From Alphaproteobacteria bacterium (GTDB lineage Bacteria > Pseudomonadota > Alphaproteobacteria > UBA8366 > Aestuariispiraceae), in assembly GCA_033344895.1 (NCBI GenBank), contig JAWPMN010000001.1, forward strand, positions 3,108,001-3,172,000: a DNA stretch of 64,000 nt, written 5' to 3'. The stretch's first letter is position 1; each line of letters opens with the position of its first letter. Below the pieces are notes generated by a model. The model was not told the origin of the DNA, did no database searches, and was given only the letters and a program-made list of their open reading frames with translations. Shown here piece by piece: positions 8,544 through 27,593 of this stretch. The position numbers and the translations under genes were made by a program.

Positions 8544-8729
8544 CCAGCACACCGCTGCCATTCAGGGATATGCCAACAAAATTGGCAGCAAGTCTGCTTA
8601 GTCAAGTTTTAGCCAGAAAGGGAAATGATTAAACCTCACTCGCGACGCGCCATTGATCAAATTTGTAAGCTGCCCATGGCGTGTGCTGTTCGTGGACTGA
8701 TGCCAAATAGTGGAACCACGAGAGCCGTA

Positions 8730-9223
8730 TTAGCGCTTTGAATCAACCCACAGTTTTTCATTGAATAGGGAGTGCCCAAAAAGCAAATGTCCGAAAAAAT
8801 ACCTAATAAGAATTTTCATAACAAATAAATTTCCAATCGAAAACAATAGGAAGTCCATGAATAGAGTTTCTACATTTATTGAATGAGAATTCTGCTCATT
8901 GATAATGTTGTAAAAATTTATTGAATAAAACATGAAGAAAAGGTAAGAAGCTAACGGAACATGCAAAACAATAAATAAAAATACGAACATGGCAAAGAAG
9001 TGTCTATGATAGAATCCTGATGCCATAGGATTCATGTAGAACAAGCAACGGCACATACCAAGTATCCCGATAAACACGTAAACAATATTAGTCGTAATGT
9101 AGAAAATGTAATAAGATGAGAAATTTAGAAAGAACCTTCCTTCTCCATTTACTGGAAATAGAAACCCAAAAAAATAGAACTCTCTTTCGGTGCTAAAACT
9201 AAATTGAAGTTCCTCTGAAAAAC
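8730..9223 (-). pseudogene. Interrupted AT-rich membrane protein gene, C-terminal part
   Basis: The 3' part of a gene cut by the transposon at 9224. It encodes about 161 residues plus the shared target site, with at least four hydrophobic stretches (for example YIFYITTNIVYVFIGILGM and FFAMFVFLFIVLHVP) and strongly AT-rich codons unlike its neighbours. Joined in frame to 12132-12404 after removing the transposon and one copy of the 8-bp duplication, it restores a 252-residue multi-pass membrane protein. I recognise no family. The remaining fragment can still be read from an ATG inside the transposon end (9248), but there is no sign that this is expressed. Confidence 0.75.
9216..9223. repeat. 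Target site duplication, left copy (first transposon)
   Basis: TGAAAAAC directly abuts the left inverted repeat and recurs as 12132-12139 after the right repeat. An 8-bp duplication is the hallmark of IS1595-family transposition. Confidence 0.93.
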
Positions 9224-9246
9224 GGGAATTATATACTTGACTGAAC
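9224..9246 (+). repeat. Left terminal inverted repeat of the first transposon
   Basis: Begins GGGAATTATATACTTGACTG and runs 23 bp. It is the exact reverse complement of 12109-12131. It contains TTGAC next to AT-rich sequence, so it may also act as an outward or inward promoter element. Confidence 0.93.
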
Positions 9247-9286
9247 ATGCTCTAATCCCCAGATATCAGGGGAAGGGAGAAACTCA

Positions 9287-9508
9287 ATGACTTCACCGCT
9301 CTGGAACATTGTCAGCATGGACATCCCTTGCACGGCATGTGGCAAGAAGCGCCCGAAGCTCGTCGACGAGTTGATACACAACAATTCCGTTCGGTGCTCC
9401 TACTGCCGGAGTGAGATCGACATCAGCTCTGAGGGGTGGCGATCCGCCATAGAGGAACTTGCTGAGAGCCTCACCCACGTCAGGCGACTCCCGCCCGTAG
9501 GTGACTAG
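9287..9508 (+). CDS. Small zinc-ribbon passenger protein
   Basis: 73-aa protein with two CxxC knuckles (CTAC at 16-19 and CSYC at 37-40), the spacing of a zinc ribbon, followed by an acidic helix (EGWRSAIEELAESL). The ATG at 9287 follows GGGAG. It lies 41 bp inside the left transposon end and 46 bp before the transposase. A role in transposition or DNA binding is possible but not shown; I do not recognise a named family. Confidence 0.6.
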   Translation: MTSPLWNIVSMDIPCTACGKKRPKLVDELIHNNSVRCSYCRSEIDISSEGWRSAIEELAESLTHVRRLPPVGD

Positions 9509-9554
9509 TTCACGAAATTCGGACAACGCCTCTCTCGCATCTGGAACATAAGTC

Positions 9555-10472
9555 ATGAACATCACCGATCCTATTTTCACCGACGAAGACAAGGCCCGCG
9601 CGTTTCTCGAAGCGCAGCGTTGGCCTAACGGCGCGACCTGCCCGTTCTGCGGTGAGTGCGAGCCGGTTAAGTCGCTCCCCGCCGAAGGCTCCATGGGCAA
9701 GGGCTGGTATCACTGCAAGTCGTGCCGCAAGAAGTTCACCGTGCGCGTCGGGACGCTGTACGAGCGCTCCCATGTGCCGCTGAACAAGTGGCTTCTGGCG
9801 ACCTTCCTTCTCACGTCCTCCAAGAAGGGCATGAGCGCACATCAGCTTCACCGCATGCTGGGCGTCACCTACAAAACCGCTTGGTTCATGGCACACCGCA
9901 TCCGCGAAGGAATGCGCGACTTCAACCCCGGCCCCATGGGCGGACAGAACAAGGTGGTCGAAGCCGACGAAACCTATGTTGGCGGCAAGGCCAAGAACGC
10001 GAAGAAGGGCAAGCCCGTTCCCAAGAAGGAAGCGGTGTTCTCCCTTGTCGAACGTGACGGCAAGGTCCGCTCGTTCCACGTACCTTCGGTTTCCCGCAAC
10101 ACCTTGCGCCCGATCCTCGTTTCCCAGATCGACCGCAAGTCATACCTCATGACCGACGAGGCCGGTGTGTACCGCTCCCCCGGTCGTGAGTTTGCCGGGC
10201 ACGGCACCGTGAACCATTCCATCGATGAGTACGTTCGCGGCACCTTCTGGCATACAAACACCATCGAAGGCTATTTCGCGATCCTCAAGCGCGGCATCAC
10301 GGGCGTTTACCAGCACGTCAGTCAGAAGCACTTGAAGCGTTACCTTGGCGAGTTCGACTTCCGCTACAACGAGCGCGACCTGACCGACACCGAGCGCACC
10401 ATCGCGGCGCTCAAAGGCATCGAAGGCAAGCGCATGACCTATCGGCGGACTGGTGAATGGGGAACCGCCTAA
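9555..10472 (+). CDS. IS1595 family transposase
   Basis: 305-aa DDE transposase. The N-terminus carries the IS1595-type zinc ribbon (CPFC at about 34-37 and CKSC at about 55-58), followed by the helix-turn-helix-like MSAHQLHRMLGVTYKTAWF. The catalytic core (ISXO2-like) shows VVEADETYVGG for the first Asp, SYLMTDEAGVY for the second, and NTIEGYFAILKRG for the acidic third position, followed by HLKRYLGEFDFRYN. The ORF appears intact. Only about 290-310 residues are expected for the family, so it is full length. It shares overall layout but little close identity with the second transposase at 25224. Confidence 0.95.
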   Translation: MNITDPIFTDEDKARAFLEAQRWPNGATCPFCGECEPVKSLPAEGSMGKGWYHCKSCRKKFTVRVGTLYERSHVPLNKWLLATFLLTSSKKGMSAHQLHRMLGVTYKTAWFMAHRIREGMRDFNPGPMGGQNKVVEADETYVGGKAKNAKKGKPVPKKEAVFSLVERDGKVRSFHVPSVSRNTLRPILVSQIDRKSYLMTDEAGVYRSPGREFAGHGTVNHSIDEYVRGTFWHTNTIEGYFAILKRGITGVYQHVSQKHLKRYLGEFDFRYNERDLTDTERTIAALKGIEGKRMTYRRTGEWGTA

Positions 10473-10613
10473 GAGGCTCCAAACCCGTCGCCAGTGGCGT
10501 GGGTTTCTCGCCCTAACCCGTTGGCTTAACTCACGAAACAATGAATCGTAAAAGTTGAGTCGAATGTCTTGCATTTCGCGTCAGAATCGACGGAGACTCG
10601 ATTCGCCAAACGA

Positions 10614-10643
10614 ATAAGGACCGGGCTGCAACCCGGTCCTTAT
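10614..10643. terminator. Strong hairpin after the transposase gene
   Basis: A perfect 12-bp stem (ATAAGGACCGGG with CCCGGTCCTTAT) and a CTGCAA loop, 141 bp downstream of the transposase stop. It could terminate transposase transcription; the 3' side has no long T-run beyond the stem, so Rho-independent termination would be inefficient. It separates transposase from passenger genes. Confidence 0.5.
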
Positions 10644-10730
10644 CTCGGAAACCCCATCGACATAGGAGCCTAGGGGTTTATTAGAAATGCAAGAGCATCC
10701 CAACGCGATTCTTTCTATCTGGTCAACCGG

Positions 10731-10752
10731 CTCCTATCAACCGGTATAGGAG
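10731..10752 (+). promoter_or_regulatory. Hairpin covering the DUF3892 ribosome binding site
   Basis: CTCCTAT (10731-10737) pairs with ATAGGAG (10746-10752) across an 8-nt loop. The 3' arm contains the AGGAG Shine-Dalgarno of the gene starting at 10761. TCAACCGG occurs twice in tandem here (10723-10730 and 10737-10744). The arrangement would hide the ribosome site unless something melts or binds it. Confidence 0.5.
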
Positions 10753-10760
10753 ATGATACC

Positions 10761-11003
10761 ATGAGCAAGAATAAGCGCACCATTGTCGACGCCCGCGCAG
10801 ACGCGGACGGAGACATCACCCATGTGCGGTTCAAGGACAACCAGCGCTTTACGCCTGTCGGGGTTGCTATCCCGATGGCAGAACGCGGGGAGATCAAGAA
10901 CACGCACGTCGTTCACCCGAACGATGGCCGCAAGGACCACCTGCGCACCAACGCCGATGGAAAGCGGAAAAACAACCTCGATGACATGGCTGGCGACGAC
11001 TAG
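10761..11003 (+). CDS. DUF3892 domain-containing passenger protein
   Basis: 80-aa protein matching the DUF3892 pattern: VDARADADGDITHVRFKDNQ, then RFTPVGVAIPMAERGEI, and a C-terminal LRTNADGKRKNNLDDMAGDD. Function of the family is unknown; members are small, soluble and frequently found near mobile elements. Here it is inside the transposon, behind a good AGGAG site that sits in a hairpin. It overlaps the end of the convergent 89-aa gene by a few bases. Confidence 0.75.
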   Translation: MSKNKRTIVDARADADGDITHVRFKDNQRFTPVGVAIPMAERGEIKNTHVVHPNDGRKDHLRTNADGKRKNNLDDMAGDD

Positions 11004-11269
11004 AGCCGCCCTCTGAACTCGCGCTCCATCACGACGCCGCGTCGGTAATCGTCTAGATTCCGGTAAAGGTCCATCGTGATGGAGCCGTTTTCATCTGCCG
11101 CGCTTACGGGCTTGGCGATCATCAGCTTTCCGTTCAGGACTGCGAAGAAATCACCTTTCGCCAAACCCGCCCCCACGACCGCCTTCTTGTGCGGGCGCGG
11201 CGGGGTTTTCAGGAAGTGCTGGACAACCTGCTTGAACTCTTTGTCGTCGTTCCTTTTTTGATCATTCAC
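11000..11269 (-). CDS. Hypothetical 89-aa passenger protein
   Basis: Soluble small protein with an unusual basic motif FLKTPPRPHKK near residues 20-30, then a GDFFAVLNGKLMIAKPV hairpin-like section. The chosen start is a GTG at 11269 preceded by GGAG; the frame is open up to 11320 but that extension overlaps the divergent gene and is hydrophobic and unlikely. Start sites of this gene and the HEPN-like gene at 11286 are 16 bp apart, back to back, so the two may share a regulatory region. Family not recognised. Confidence 0.5.
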   Translation of the reverse strand: MNDQKRNDDKEFKQVVQHFLKTPPRPHKKAVVGAGLAKGDFFAVLNGKLMIAKPVSAADENGSITMDLYRNLDDYRRGVVMEREFRGRL

Positions 11270-11285
11270 TGCACTGGAACTCCAA

Positions 11286-11957
11286 ATGGCTAAGAAAAAA
11301 GATATGGGCAGTAAGCCCAAAAAACCACCGACTCCGAAAACTGTACATGCTTGGGACGCCCCGCCGCCGCCAAGAGATGGCGACCCCGATAAGGAAACCG
11401 TCTTTCAGGCCGTTGGCGAGGCGCTGTCCGCTTGGGAGGGGCTTGAGGAACAATTTGCAGGCATATTTGCCACCCTCATGAATCCGGATCATCCACTAGC
11501 GGCAAAACGCGCCTACGGCTCGGTCATGTCCTTCCGCGGAAGGGCGGAACTCATTGAAGCTGCGGCCAGCGCCCAGTTTTTCCTCCGACAGGATGAACAA
11601 CTTTCGAGCGCGCTATCCTCTCAAATTGTCACCGCCAGGAAATTTTCGCCCAGACGGAATGAGATCGCACACGGCAGGGTGATTCCCTACTTCTCCATGG
11701 CGTACGGACCGTTCGGCTACCGCACCGCGCGAAAAACTCCGTCTGGCTACGTTCTTTGCCCTACCGACCATGCAACGAACAAGCGTGAACTGAACGAACC
11801 ACGCATGCTCCTTGAAACCGCCCATGAGGCCCCGAAGTACGCCTACTCATCCAAGGAAGTCCTAGCTTTCGCGGCGCACTTTAGAGCAGCCACCGATGAC
11901 GTGCGCGAGATTCGCTTCAAACTATTCCGTCACGTACTGGATACGCAGAAATCATAG
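11286..11957 (+). CDS. HEPN-like 223-aa passenger protein
   Basis: 223 aa with a basic, proline-rich N-terminus (about 1-30) and an alpha-helical remainder. The segment SPRRNEIAHGRV (122-132) gives R124-N125-x3-H129, the R-x4-H arrangement with a polar residue after Arg that marks many HEPN ribonucleases and HEPN-fold proteins. A leading amphipathic helix (ETVFQAVGEALSAWEGLEEQ) fits the same fold. If active it would be an RNA-cleaving or abortive-infection type protein carried on the transposon. Assignment is by motif and helical character only; it could also be a catalytically silent HEPN relative. Confidence 0.55.
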   Translation: MAKKKDMGSKPKKPPTPKTVHAWDAPPPPRDGDPDKETVFQAVGEALSAWEGLEEQFAGIFATLMNPDHPLAAKRAYGSVMSFRGRAELIEAAASAQFFLRQDEQLSSALSSQIVTARKFSPRRNEIAHGRVIPYFSMAYGPFGYRTARKTPSGYVLCPTDHATNKRELNEPRMLLETAHEAPKYAYSSKEVLAFAAHFRAATDDVREIRFKLFRHVLDTQKS

Positions 11958-12102
11958 CGCGGAACACTTCAACAGCAAACGCCTCACCGGTATTCTGGCT
12001 GGTGTCAAAGCAGTCCGCCAAAATGCGTCCGCCCGCTGCCTTCATCTCGGGCGTAACCTCGATTTCGTCAGTACCGGCCTGTCGTTCTGTAGGTGTGTTC
12101 AT
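11917..12102 (-). CDS. Hypothetical 61-aa protein at the transposon right end
   Basis: Small protein (MNTPTERQAGTDEIEVTPEM...) whose EVTPEMKAAGGRILADC followed by EVFRAM resembles a recurrent short alphaproteobacterial hypothetical-protein pattern. It ends convergently inside the HEPN-like gene (41-bp overlap) and starts 6 bp inside the right inverted repeat, so any promoter must lie in or beyond the transposon end. No clear ribosome site is seen. Real but unproven. Confidence 0.4.
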   Translation of the reverse strand: MNTPTERQAGTDEIEVTPEMKAAGGRILADCFDTSQNTGEAFAVEVFRAMISAYPVRDGIV

Positions 12103-12108
12103 CGATCC

Positions 12109-12131
12109 GTTCAGTCAAGTATATAATTCCC
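12109..12131 (-). repeat. Right terminal inverted repeat of the first transposon
   Basis: Ends ...AAGTATATAATTCCC; exact reverse complement of the left end over 23 bp. Confidence 0.93.
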
Positions 12132-12139
12132 TGAAAAAC
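12132..12139. repeat. Target site duplication, right copy (first transposon)
   Basis: TGAAAAAC directly after the right inverted repeat, identical to 9216-9223. Confidence 0.93.
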
Positions 12140-12404
12140 GGTAAGAGATGGTGCAGTTTTTCGCTATATCAGCGCATTCAGTCACCTTGGTCGGAATGAA
12201 AAAGAGAATATTGTCAAGTAAGAATTCCGATATAACGTACCCATTGTTAAAGAATAGAGTGTAAGCTAAGTATATAAGTGATGTCAAAAATGAAACAGAC
12301 CATATCAAAAGAAGAAAGCGGAATTCATATTCTACTGTCAGAACACGGCAAAGGTCCGCGCATTTTTTCGCTATTGTTAAAGCGCCGTGCAGTGTCACTA
12401 CCAC
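12132..12404 (-). pseudogene. Interrupted AT-rich membrane protein gene, N-terminal part
   Basis: The 5' part of the gene whose remainder lies at 8730-9223. About 91 residues precede the insertion, with a first transmembrane segment (FLLLIWSVSFLTSLIYLAY) and a second hydrophobic stretch near ISEFLLDNILFF. The frame opens with a GTG at 12404 after GAGAGG, but the true start is uncertain. The split falls after the residues SYRFS, and the other fragment continues EELQFSF in the same frame. Confidence 0.7.
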
Positions 12405-12851
12405 CCTCTCAGAGTCAGAGGAACTTCGCGGTTACGCTCGCGTCCATCTGTACATTTTGACATTCCCCAAATGATAGAATTTTCAGGCTTATGTAATCGG
12501 AAGATTCCATTATGCGTAGCGTAATTCGATGCTGTATGACTTGGCAAGAATATCGATTATATGAGCGTCCGTTCCGGGTCACGAACGGAGGTCTCGGTTG
12601 GTGGCGCTTACGGTCTGCTGCTGGGATGCGAGCGGACCAATCGTTTCGTAGTCGGCGGGCGCGCCTGCGGTCTGATCCTTGGCGCTCTCTCCCAAACCCC
12701 GGCCAATCCGCGGGCCGTCCCGCCGTTCTGTGCGATCTAAATGTCCTCTCCGGCCAAGCTGTCGACCACCCCGCAATTTCCTACAATCTTTTCCGCCGCC
12801 GCTGTCGCATACCTCTCATCGTGACGAGGTGTTCGCGACAGGGAGTGATCG
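12405..12851. other. Intergenic region, no gene seen
   Basis: About 450 bp. The left part (to about 12560) is AT-rich and probably holds the promoter of the interrupted membrane gene; the right part returns to the GC-rich composition of the chromosome, marking the edge of the foreign segment. Short open frames here have no ribosome site or family pattern. A weak CCGTTC/GAACGG hairpin lies at 12569-12588. The azlC gene follows with GGGAG before its start. Confidence 0.5.
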
Positions 12852-24185: not shown

Positions 24186-25159
24186 TTTTCGAGATACCGT
24201 CTTGCGATTTCAAGTCTAGAACGAACAACAGAGGCGTCACTAGTGTTAAAGAAAATACACTCTCTATAAACTTCATCATTGATAAGGTTGTTGAAACGAA
24301 CATTAATGTCTTCAGGGATATTGTCACCCATATTGAGAAGTGTTGTTAGAACAGAATCCATGGCTGCCAAATTAATGGGGCCCCTAACATTGAAGGGTTT
24401 TTCAGGAAATTTATCACTTATGATTTCCAAAACATATGGAAACCTAGATAAGAACTGAGAGTATTTTGAAGAATTTCCGCTTTTGTTGTTTTCCATGGAA
24501 ATATTCAGAAATTCTTTCATTGGTTTTTCATATTTATCTCCTCGATCAAATAGAGAGAATACTCTTAATATCATTTCCACATCTCGTTTTGTGTTTATCT
24601 ATTGTCTTTTTCCCTATTATTTTCCTCCAGATGGCGTTCTGATTTAACTCTTGAAGTGAATCAACAATCGGTCCATGAAAAACACAATTCCGTATTTCTT
24701 GAGGGCGTAAAGGGGTGCCTCCGGTGTTAAGCCGTTCGAAAATGTAAAACATACTGTCCGAACTGTTGGCTGGAGATAGTTGCCGAATATTGACCGCGCG
24801 AAGCACGGCGTTTTTTAGGCGCCGTTGGTCCGATTGAGTTAAATCTTCAAATCTCAAATTTGCGTAAGGGCTATCTTCAGGAAGCCCTGTAAGACGAAAA
24901 ACGCGCCGTTTCCCAAGGTTTTCGTAGCCAAAATAACCATCAAAGAAAAATATTATTGATAGCAATCTCTGCTGCCCATCAATTACCAAGTTTTTATTCG
25001 TAGAATCTATGTAGAAAAAGACCTGAGGAACTGGTAATCCTAGAAGAAACGACTCTACTAAAAGGGAGGATTGCTTGATTGTCCATACGAAATTCCTTTG
25101 GAATTTAGGTATCGTTACATCTTTTTCATTCCACATCTCGTATATGACGCTTAGAGTTA
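24182..25159 (-). pseudogene. DUF262 (GmrSD N-terminal-like) gene, C-terminal part with frameshift
   Basis: The main part of a DUF262 gene cut by a transposon at 25160. Readable signatures are VTIPKFQRNFVW, LVIDGQQRLLSII (the ParB-like DGQQR loop) and FERLNTGGTPLRPQEIRN. Near 24583 the frame breaks: one frame ends KHKTRCGNDIKSILSI-stop, while the next frame reads KRDVEMILRVFSLFDRGD, the expected continuation. Removing one A from the AAAA run at about 24585-24588 (minus strand) restores the match. With the 39 codons at 27594-27710 an intact protein would be about 360 aa. DUF262 proteins are nucleotide-binding, ParB/Srx-fold components of defence systems. Confidence 0.82.
25152..25159. repeat. 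Target site duplication, left copy (second transposon)
   Basis: TAGAGTTA immediately before the left inverted repeat, repeated exactly at 27594-27601. Confidence 0.92.
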
Positions 25160-25173
25160 GGGGTTTATCCCCT
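25160..25173 (+). repeat. Left terminal inverted repeat of the second transposon
   Basis: GGGGTTTATCCCCT, itself partly self-complementary (GGGG...CCCC). Exact reverse complement of 27580-27593. Confidence 0.9.
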
Positions 25174-25223
25174 TGACGCAAGTATGTTGACTTCCTATAT
25201 ATTGGTCATCGATGGAGGACACG

Positions 25224-26096
25224 ATGACCAAACTGACCGTTCGAGATTTCTTCGCCCGCTTCCCGGACGACGATGCGTGCCTTCATCATGTGATGGAAGT
25301 TCGCTACGGTGCGCGGCATGAGTGCGAAGCCTGCGGCAAGGAAAGCACCTTCCATCGTATCGCCAAGCGCAAAGCCTATGCCTGCGCGGCCTGCGGCCAT
25401 CATATCTATCCGTGCGCCGGTACGATCTTCGAAGACAGCCGCACGTCGCTGCAACTCTGGTTCTATGCCATCTACCTGTTCGTGACGACGCGCCACGGCG
25501 TTTCCGGCAAGGAACTGCAACGGTCGCTTGGCGTCACGTACAAAACCGCGTGGCGCATGGGCCAGCAGATCCGCAAGCTGATGGGCGATGCCGACAACTT
25601 CGAAATGCTGCGCGGTCACGTCGAACTGGACGAGGCGTATGTCGGTGGCCGTCGCCCCGGCAAGCGCGGTCGCGGTGCCGAAGGTAAGACCATCGTCATG
25701 GGCCTGAAACAGCGCGATGGCCGGATCGTTACCGAAGTCATCCCGAACGTGAAGAAAACCACACTGCGGGATGTAACGCTGCGCAACGTCGAGCCGGGAA
25801 CGACCGTCTCTACCGACGAACTGATGTCTTACGGCTTACTGGACGACGACGGGTACCAGCACGGCGCGGTGAAGCATGGTGCGAAGGAATACGCGCACTA
25901 CGACTACCGTCACGACGCGGTACACCACACGAACCACGTTGAAAGCTTCTGGCGGCTGTTCAAGAAGTCCATTGCCGGGACGCACATTCACGTGTCTTCG
26001 AAGTACATGCGCCGGTATCTGGACGAGTTCACTTTCCGGTCGAACCATCGGAAGATGGAGAACGCGATGTTCGATCTTCTGATTTCGCGGGTCTGA
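25224..26096 (+). CDS. IS1595 family transposase
   Basis: 290-aa DDE transposase. A zinc ribbon (CEAC near 33-36 and CAAC near 53-56) precedes a helix-turn-helix (GVSGKELQRSLGVTYKTAW). The catalytic residues are visible in VELDEAYVGG, TVSTDELMSYG and NHVESFWRLFKKS, followed by KYMRRYLDEFTFRSNHR. The ATG at 25224 has GGAGG five bases before it; an upstream ATG at 25212 overlaps that site and is rejected. The gene looks intact. The last 60 or so bases overlap a convergent small gene. Confidence 0.95.
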   Translation: MTKLTVRDFFARFPDDDACLHHVMEVRYGARHECEACGKESTFHRIAKRKAYACAACGHHIYPCAGTIFEDSRTSLQLWFYAIYLFVTTRHGVSGKELQRSLGVTYKTAWRMGQQIRKLMGDADNFEMLRGHVELDEAYVGGRRPGKRGRGAEGKTIVMGLKQRDGRIVTEVIPNVKKTTLRDVTLRNVEPGTTVSTDELMSYGLLDDDGYQHGAVKHGAKEYAHYDYRHDAVHHTNHVESFWRLFKKSIAGTHIHVSSKYMRRYLDEFTFRSNHRKMENAMFDLLISRV

Positions 26097-26217
26097 TGGT
26101 GGACGCTAAGGCGTCCATCAATTCAGACTCATCGACAGGACCGACGCCGCGCGCCTCTTCCTGAGCGATGAAATCCTTTAATCGTCCGGCCCGCCTCGCG
26201 GCTCTTAAGCTCAACAT
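26029..26217 (-). CDS. Small conserved protein overlapping the transposase 3' end
   Basis: 62-aa protein (MLSLRAARRAGRLKDFIAQE...) with RAGRLKDFIAQEEARGVGP and a Ser-rich tail SEDRTSRSPSSDGS. This pattern recurs as a small hypothetical protein encoded convergently with IS1595-type transposases. The start at 26217 has a GAGG-containing upstream; 26232 is the alternative, overlapping the stop of the 268-aa gene. Function unknown; the DNA shared with the transposase end constrains both frames. Confidence 0.5.
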   Translation of the reverse strand: MLSLRAARRAGRLKDFIAQEEARGVGPVDESELMDALASTIRPAKSEDRTSRSPSSDGSTGK

Positions 26218-26221
26218 CTTC

Positions 26222-26995
26222 TCAACCCTCATGGATCACAACACGCTGCAGAAGCTCAGTATCTGCATCCCAGTCTATCACCCTGCAGTCCATGCTGAGA
26301 ATGTTATGCATCGTACCAAGTGACGCCTTGTCTCGGACCATTGCCACTCGCTCCGGCGCCCCCTCTGATGCCTTAACATCTCGAAACTTGGTCGACGCCG
26401 CGTAGATGGAATTTCGATGATTGGCCACCGCCTCGAACACAGTCCTAACGTAGCTAGAGTTTACCATCGCGTCGAACGGCCAGTGGGTATTTGACGCCCC
26501 AACGATATCAACGTCCCGCGATACGTTCTTGGCCGAAAATACACGAACCAGCTTCGCATAGAGCAGGTCGCTGTCGTTTTCTTTCCTAGCCTCATCGACC
26601 TTCTGCGCTGCCAGAACAACGGCCTCGCACGACGCATTTGCAACAGACAGCGCGGCCCATGCAAGATTGGCTCGCGGCACATTTGTCACAGAAAATGCAT
26701 GTTTGATAAACGCCAAGCCTAGCCGTTGAGCCACTTCACCCGCTTGCCGGACGAAGGAGGTTGCCACGCCCATTGCCTCCGCCTCGTCATACGCCAGGGC
26801 ATAGTCGGACACCAGATAGCTATCTGTCTCCGTAAGGGGCGGAATCTTCTGGATTCGGACGGCGACACAAGAGCCATTGGGGTAAAAGACAGGCAGACGA
26901 ATGAAGCAAGCGCCACTATCGGTCTCAATCACCGAGACATGTCGCGCAATCTCGTCTGCCACCGCCCCACAGATCGATGTCTTTGCTTCCGTCAT
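26222..26995 (-). CDS. DUF1828-like passenger protein
   Basis: 257-aa soluble protein. The N-terminal half (ACFIRLPVFYPNGSCVAVRI, then SYLVSDYALAYDEAEAMG) resembles the DUF1828 arrangement, in which a bound-DNA or nuclease-like domain reads ...TDxG; the match is only by eye. The C-terminal half is mixed alpha/beta. The start at 26995 overlaps the stop of the 183-aa gene (ATGA), so the two are translationally coupled and probably act together. Function unknown. Confidence 0.55.
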   Translation of the reverse strand: MTEAKTSICGAVADEIARHVSVIETDSGACFIRLPVFYPNGSCVAVRIQKIPPLTETDSYLVSDYALAYDEAEAMGVATSFVRQAGEVAQRLGLAFIKHAFSVTNVPRANLAWAALSVANASCEAVVLAAQKVDEARKENDSDLLYAKLVRVFSAKNVSRDVDIVGASNTHWPFDAMVNSSYVRTVFEAVANHRNSIYAASTKFRDVKASEGAPERVAMVRDKASLGTMHNILSMDCRVIDWDADTELLQRVVIHEG

Positions 26996-27543
26996 AAGAA
27001 TAGGTCGCCTTCTGGGCCCTCCGCCCAAGGATTGGGGACGTATTCAGCCAGGCCGTTGATTCTAAAGCATTTTGATGTTAGCGCAAGCAAGTCGGAAAAG
27101 GTGGCCGGATCAGGGCTAAGTGCCTCAGCAATCGGCAAATTGTTGGTTAGAAGTCTCCGCTGGTCGGTCAGCCAGTTACAACTAAACAGGTGCCTGTGGC
27201 TACCATACACGAACGTCTTGTGCAGATGTCCGCACGGACCCTTTGGAACATTCTTGTGGTATCCTTGGATCGGGCGCCACTCTATCCGGTCTATAGCACG
27301 GTCTGTGCGTCCGTCTTGCGGATACTCCAGCTGCAACAAGACGTTGGCGTTCGGTAAGTCCGCCCGGGCCTTTCCACGAAACGCGAGCCCTTCGCGCGGC
27401 ATCCCTTCGCCGGTCTCCAGCGACAAAACAATCTGAAGGCAGCCATCCCCTGTCGCGCTCCAGCGCTGGGGGATCGCCACGCTTTTCTCAACTTCGAAAA
27501 CTGTTGGCGTCTCTCCTGACATGCATGGATAAAACCACAACAT
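26992..27543 (-). CDS. Hypothetical 183-aa passenger protein
   Basis: First gene of the transposon-borne minus-strand operon, starting about 50 bp inside the right end. It contains the conserved-looking block IDRIEWRPIQGYHKN followed by CGHLHKTFVYGSHRHLF with several His and Cys residues. I do not recognise the family. The start may instead be 27522 (MSGETPTVFE); neither has a good ribosome site. It is coupled by ATGA to the DUF1828-like gene. Confidence 0.55.
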   Translation of the reverse strand: MLWFYPCMSGETPTVFEVEKSVAIPQRWSATGDGCLQIVLSLETGEGMPREGLAFRGKARADLPNANVLLQLEYPQDGRTDRAIDRIEWRPIQGYHKNVPKGPCGHLHKTFVYGSHRHLFSCNWLTDQRRLLTNNLPIAEALSPDPATFSDLLALTSKCFRINGLAEYVPNPWAEGPEGDLFL

Positions 27544-27579
27544 GCACTAGAAATGCGACTCCCAACTTAACTTGCTCTC

Positions 27580-27593
27580 AGGGGATAAACCCC
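27580..27593 (-). repeat. Right terminal inverted repeat of the second transposon
   Basis: AGGGGATAAACCCC, the reverse complement of the left end. Confidence 0.9.

Follow-up and report, generated by a model that had tools for sequence, protein, structure and literature searches.

We have examined a 64,000-nt stretch of the genome of an Alphaproteobacteria bacterium (contig JAWPMN010000001.1, forward strand, positions 3,108,001 to 3,172,000; hereafter, the window) and found that positions 9224-12131 correspond to a complete IS1595-family element of 2,908 bp, whose boundaries and gene order, together with the conservation of this layout in 68 elements, were established by computation. Its transposase and its ends are those of an ordinary member of a known family. 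Sequence comparisons indicate that it is probably an ISNwi1-type transposon acting as a backbone for exchangeable ribonuclease (RNase) or defence effectors. The backbone would comprise the ends, the DDE transposase and a small protein of the TPPKPH family, to which many relatives would add a second small protein, TPxMIEAG (TPxM), and it would frame two exchangeable cargo slots, occupied here by a DUF3892 protein (slot A) and by a HEPN-like protein (slot B). A layout in which slot B usually carries a toxin-like or immunity-like predicted RNA cutter suggests that small elements of this type shuttle defence-type genes between bacteria. The features of the element and of its insertion site are listed below (positions within the window; ORF, open reading frame).

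8730-9223, minus strand: interrupted host ORF, 3′ part; contains one copy of the duplication
9216-9223, no strand: left copy of the 8-bp target duplication TGAAAAAC; exact match with 12132-12139
9224-9246, plus strand: left terminal inverted repeat, 23 bp, 100% complementary to 12109-12131; like ends in 67 relatives
9287-9508, plus strand: 73-aa CxxC...CxxC zinc-ribbon ORF of the left leader; weak Pfam zinc-ribbon matches only
9555-10472, plus strand: IS1595-family DDE transposase, 305 aa; Pfam and NCBIfam matches, catalytic residues invariant
10614-10643, no strand: inverted repeat 3′ of the transposase, 15-nt arms, 93% complementary; possible terminator
10761-11003, plus strand: slot A cargo, DUF3892 protein, 80 aa (PF13031, 7.4e-11)
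11000-11269, minus strand: TPPKPH-family small protein, 89 aa, GTG start; family in 64 of 68 elements, excess of substitutions at third codon positions
11286-11957, plus strand: slot B cargo, HEPN-like protein, 223 aa, RNEIAH at residues 124-129; family in 47 of 68 elements
11917-12102, minus strand: TPxMIEAG-family small protein, 61 aa; family in 33 of 68 elements, overlaps the 3′ end of the HEPN-like gene
12109-12131, minus strand: right terminal inverted repeat, 23 bp; perfect pairing with the left copy
12132-12139, no strand: right copy of the target duplication TGAAAAAC; exact match with 9216-9223
12140-12404, minus strand: interrupted host ORF, 5′ part, A+T-rich and membrane-protein-like; in frame with 8730-9223 after joining the flanks

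The exact duplication and a restored host ORF demonstrate that the insertion is intact. When the flanks were joined in silico, a minus-strand in-frame ORF of 252 aa was obtained (759 nt, 12404 to 12140 followed by 9223 to 8730), and therefore the boundaries and the duplication are right, in agreement with the perfect 23-bp repeats and the exact 8-bp duplication of the original prediction. That prediction had also deduced a recent move from the identical ends, a deduction that does not hold because identity between terminal repeats does not date moves in such elements. A search for further copies, which it had proposed, returned a single copy in the 4.64-Mb genome of the host and, among plasmids, diverged transposases only (best, about 54% identity); a search of phages with the transposase gave none. 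The comparison with empty sites in relatives, also proposed there, was run on 20 related genomes, where the left flank had no match and no natural empty site was found. The element has a G+C content of 56.7%, compared with 32% in the 500 bp adjoining it on the left and 40% in the 400 bp on the right. More broadly, host DNA at 8600-9223 and 12140-12530 is A+T-rich (32-40% G+C versus 61% for the window). As the flanks are A+T-rich and the left one is without a match in the related genomes, the host sequence around the insertion is probably acquired DNA.

The transposase matched the Pfam domain PF12762 (1.8e-34), the N-terminal zinc ribbon PF12760 (1.1e-09) and the NCBIfam model NF033547 (7.4e-56, above its cut-off), and residues D138, D201, E238 and K245 were invariant in an alignment of 20 sequences. 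These domains, together with the 8-bp duplication and the inverted repeats, place the element in the IS1595 family with one DDE transposase, as originally proposed. The signature of the ISNwi1 group in ISfinder, a DDE triad followed by K, ggnnatTAT-type ends, 1.75-4.75 kb in length and the presence of passenger genes, is matched by D138/D201/E238/K245, by the ends GGGAATTAT, by the 2,908-bp length and by five genes other than the transposase. Thus, the element is probably a passenger-carrying IS1595 transposon (‘tIS’) of the ISNwi1 type.

Conservation of the layout was evaluated in the best 80 of about 480 transposase-related loci in GTDB genomes, 67 of which could be delimited by their ends and duplication, making 68 elements with that of the window. 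Most of them carried an exact 8-bp duplication, and 11 in which it was poor or missing were retained on the basis of their ends; passenger families were built by iterated profile searches of the passenger ORFs. Delimited elements measured 1,857-3,601 bp, had ends of the form GGNNATTAT and displayed a constant order, that is, a plus-strand transposase, slot A, a minus-strand TPPKPH gene, slot B, often a minus-strand TPxMIEAG gene and the right end. TPPKPH proteins (∼50 aa) and TPxMIEAG proteins (∼60 aa), the latter adjoining the right end, were always encoded on the minus strand, and the HEPN-like proteins (∼200 aa) always on the plus strand; the 89-, 61- and 223-aa genes of the window belong to these three families, respectively. 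Hence, the five genes found beside the transposase, all with the sizes originally given (73-aa zinc ribbon, 80-aa DUF3892, 89, 223 and 61 aa), are not a one-off collection, since three of them belong to families that recur in dozens of elements, always in the same order and on the same strands. Similarly, a large passenger load had been considered uncommon, which is wrong for this subgroup: the DNA beyond the transposase spans 862-2,407 bp, with at least 862 bp in 68 of 68 elements. Passengers also accompanied more distant IS1595 transposases in most of the cases with ends found; one distant element of 1,195 bp (L167) has no room for them. On a Mesorhizobium plasmid, an element with 54% transposase identity and an exact 8-bp duplication likewise had DUF3892 as its slot-A gene, followed by a TPPKPH ORF missing from the annotation and, in slot B, by a different protein on the plus strand annotated as ‘hypothetical’. 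Taken as a whole, the original interpretation is partly supported.

HEPN domains carry an Rx4-6H motif with a polar residue after the R, located at the end of helix 3 (PMC3710099). The window protein contains RNEIAH, and its predicted structure (pLDDT 86, pTM 0.82) places this motif, residues 124-129, at the close of a long helix spanning residues 104-129; the predicted model of a second family member was similar. Despite a mean identity of only ∼15% among the 47 members, R124 is invariant, H129 is present in at least 90% of them and R-[ND]-x3-5-H occurs in 41, so that the HEPN-like character originally assigned to the 223-aa gene was borne out. A few members gave weak matches to Csx1/CARF-HEPN models. 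No Pfam HEPN profile matched any of the 47 members, and for this reason we name the protein HEPN-like rather than a HEPN member. Foldseek comparison of one model with viral models returned nothing significant (best E 0.011, an unnamed protein), and a search of 44 genomes of the order retrieved the window protein itself only. By its motif and topology, the slot-B protein would be a metal-independent HEPN RNase working as an abortive-infection or toxin-like effector, and would be retained for the protection that it gives the host or the element from phages or from competing elements.

The proteins that replace it in other elements make slot B, judged by their profile matches, nuclease-rich. We found an AIPR/AbiU protein in L021 (2.7e-123), a GmrSD_N protein in L018 (NsnA 2.6e-62, PD-T4-2_A 4.8e-48) together with HEPN_MAE_28990 (9.6e-14), an NsnA-like protein in L023, an NYN protein in L009, DUF3800 in L042, an element where the TPPKPH gene was not found, and PDC-M24B-like proteins in L010, L075 and L080. 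Several further slot-B proteins matched no identified family. PADLOC matches were obtained for slot-B genes of other elements; with the cargo of the window, PADLOC gave marginal zinc-ribbon matches for the 73-aa ORF and none for the other passengers. More distant relatives on Methylobacterium and Roseomonas plasmids have annotated cargo that includes VapC/PIN-domain proteins.

Comparison of divergence between genes revealed that the slot-B protein is decoupled from the transposase. TPPKPH distances tracked transposase distances (r = 0.20 for 44 elements and 0.29 for 64; P < 0.001), whereas HEPN-like distances followed neither those of the transposase (r = 0.03, P = 0.20) nor those of TPPKPH (r = −0.006). 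At 15% identity HEPN-like distances are near saturation, which weakens this correlation test, and therefore close pairs weigh more. The transposases of L067 and L078 are 97% identical and their HEPN-like proteins 12%; the corresponding values for L035 and L043 are 94% and 10%. The DNA in both slots is unrelated within such close pairs, and similarity is confined to three blocks: from the left end to ∼50 bp past the transposase, ∼70-150 bp within TPPKPH and the last 22-109 bp before the right end. This pattern fits a replacement of cargo by recombination within the three short shared blocks, a mechanism that we infer from the alignments.

The TPPKPH gene is very probably translated, because nucleotide alignments between elements, made blind to the protein, accumulated 597, 587 and 1552 mismatches at codon positions 1, 2 and 3, respectively (element pairs are not independent, and hence no P value is given). 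This strong excess at third positions led us to reject the idea of TPPKPH as a DNA signal only. Considering the nearest pair of starts, the start codons of TPPKPH and HEPN-like genes overlap as CATG in 33 of the 44 elements carrying both, and in many elements with minus-strand effectors TPPKPH overlaps the end of the effector by ∼4 bp. Among 289 genomes of the class there were 30 TPPKPH matches, ∼21 of which adjoin a strong transposase match, as judged by eye from the coordinates. TPPKPH would be a regulator specific to the element, controlling either slot-B expression or transposition, and not a cognate antitoxin. An extended form of the backbone reading, which we put forward tentatively and regard as somewhat less probable than not, is that this IS1595 clade specialises in carrying single-gene RNase-type immune effectors as exchangeable cassettes on a constant backbone, in which TPPKPH, a near-universal small protein not recognised before, would keep control through successive swaps by means of a start usually fused to that of the effector.

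Several observations weigh against the backbone reading. Comparison of the two AlphaFold2 models with the PDB by Foldseek gave no significant match, and therefore the name ‘HEPN-like’ is based on motif and topology; profile comparison of HEPN_AbiU2 with the family was likewise not significant, and the window protein matches no Pfam or PADLOC family. The placement in the ISNwi1 group relies on signature features. In the window, the TPPKPH and HEPN-like starts lie 16 bp apart without overlapping (GTG ending at 11269, ATG at 11286). Finally, about 12 of 30 HEPN-like loci sampled in the class had no companion within a 2-3.6-kb locus; the cargo pool is therefore probably common to the elements and to host genomes.

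The same data could be explained if the element were an addiction module, with the HEPN-like protein as toxin and one or both small proteins as antitoxins, maintained because its loss harms the cell, as proposed for toxin-antitoxin genes of Tn3-family transposons. HEPN domains are common as toxins (PMC3710099), and Tn3-family transposons carry toxin-antitoxin pairs, one of them HEPN-MNT (PMC7157771). Moreover, TPxM is present in 32 of 47 HEPN-like elements and in 0 of 12 elements with minus-strand effectors, and a weak correlation links the divergence of TPxM to that of the HEPN-like protein (r = 0.12, P = 0.02). However, 15 of the 47 HEPN-like elements lack TPxM, TPPKPH accompanies unrelated effectors and its r of −0.006 with the HEPN-like protein is unlike that of a cognate antitoxin, and neither MNT nor any other known antitoxin was recognised. 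With neither small protein behaving as a clearly co-evolving partner, we consider an addiction module unlikely, at perhaps one chance in several.

Even less probable is that the HEPN-like protein and TPPKPH protect nobody and work only for the element, for instance through cleavage of the transposase mRNA or tuning of target use. TPPKPH is indeed nearly universal with this transposase clade, follows its divergence and, in the class sample, mostly adjoins a transposase; yet there are sister transposases without TPPKPH, and the slot-B protein is swapped for unrelated ones between elements with nearly identical transposases, several of the replacements being known defence proteins. As for a neutral load, in which any DNA trapped between two ends would be carried with no common function, several cargo genes (DUF3892, the zinc ribbon and many slot-A ORFs) have no known function, but the fixed order and orientation, the motif-defined family present in 47 of 68 elements, the precise CATG geometry and the coding conservation of TPPKPH make this explanation highly improbable and the most disfavoured one.

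The backbone reading was then set beside known systems. Siguier, Gagnevin and Chandler are reported, in works citing them, to have covered in 2009 the IS1595 family including the ISNwi1 group. With this group our elements share the zinc-ribbon IS1595 transposase, the D-D-E-K residues, the 8-bp duplication, ends of the GGNNATTAT form and a length of 1.9-3.6 kb with passengers; according to the literature found, they differ in the constancy of their gene order, in having the small proteins TPPKPH and TPxM and in their two replaceable slots. No description of the two-slot layout or of these small proteins was found in the literature searched, which mostly lacked subscription papers. An IS1595-type transposase with passengers is also present in tISCpe8 and MTnSag1, described as mobilizable, the former being a lincomycin resistance element (PMC5704250), whereas here we recognised no gene for resistance or mobilization. 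Tn3-family transposons resemble our elements in that genes for toxin-like RNases (HEPN, PIN) occupy a constant position, but have another transposase, a resolvase with a res site and recognised toxin-antitoxin pairs (PMC7157771) instead of single effectors with non-cognate small proteins. Tn7-like elements likewise carry diverse, exchangeable defence genes, HEPN included (PMC8649781), but these are far larger, multi-gene and targeted, in contrast to one effector per 2-3 kb moved by a DDE transposase that duplicates 8 bp. If the backbone reading is true, very small transposons would supply mobile genes for defence or toxins that are likely to be missed in annotation, and the fixed slot would allow simple mining of effectors by inspecting what each element carries between its TPPKPH gene and its right end. 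This reading also raises the question of what role is played by a near-universal small protein whose start overlaps that of an exchangeable effector.

In the left leader, small CxxC...CxxC ORFs upstream of the transposase were also found in L036 and L044, among the few elements with a long left leader, and this position is possibly a third cargo site. Left ends scored higher than shuffled sequences (mean 4.6 versus 3.3) for a −10 hexamer suitably spaced from the TTGAC in the repeat. We also considered whether abutted ends could create a promoter, and discarded the idea as the hexamers were not aligned at a usable spacing.

At the target sites, a resemblance to the tips of the element's own ends was seen in the bases that immediately flank the duplication, with 114 of 220 matches over the first four positions (permuted mean 78, standard deviation 6). 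Unusually good folding was observed in 16 of 55 reconstructed targets compared with 3 of 55 controls, and several targets in the flanks of loci L009-L088 are CCCTCCCC-N-GGGGAGGG-type palindromes; the target of the window element is not a hairpin (z 0.7). Tip-like flanks and palindromic or hairpin targets possibly reflect a target preference.

The window also contains a second, diverged IS1595-type element at 25160-27593 (2,434 bp, 36% transposase identity, 8-bp duplication TAGAGTTA), with two minus-strand passengers of 268 and 183 aa and an identical copy elsewhere in the genome, at about 2.33 Mb. Its 268-aa protein is a distant relative (26%, E 2e-05) of the PDC-M24B-like slot-B protein of L010. 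A minus-strand ORF at 24546-25181 that matches NsnA/PD-T4-2_A (GmrSD-type, 2.5e-47) ends at the left edge of this second element, which may therefore have interrupted a defence-type gene.

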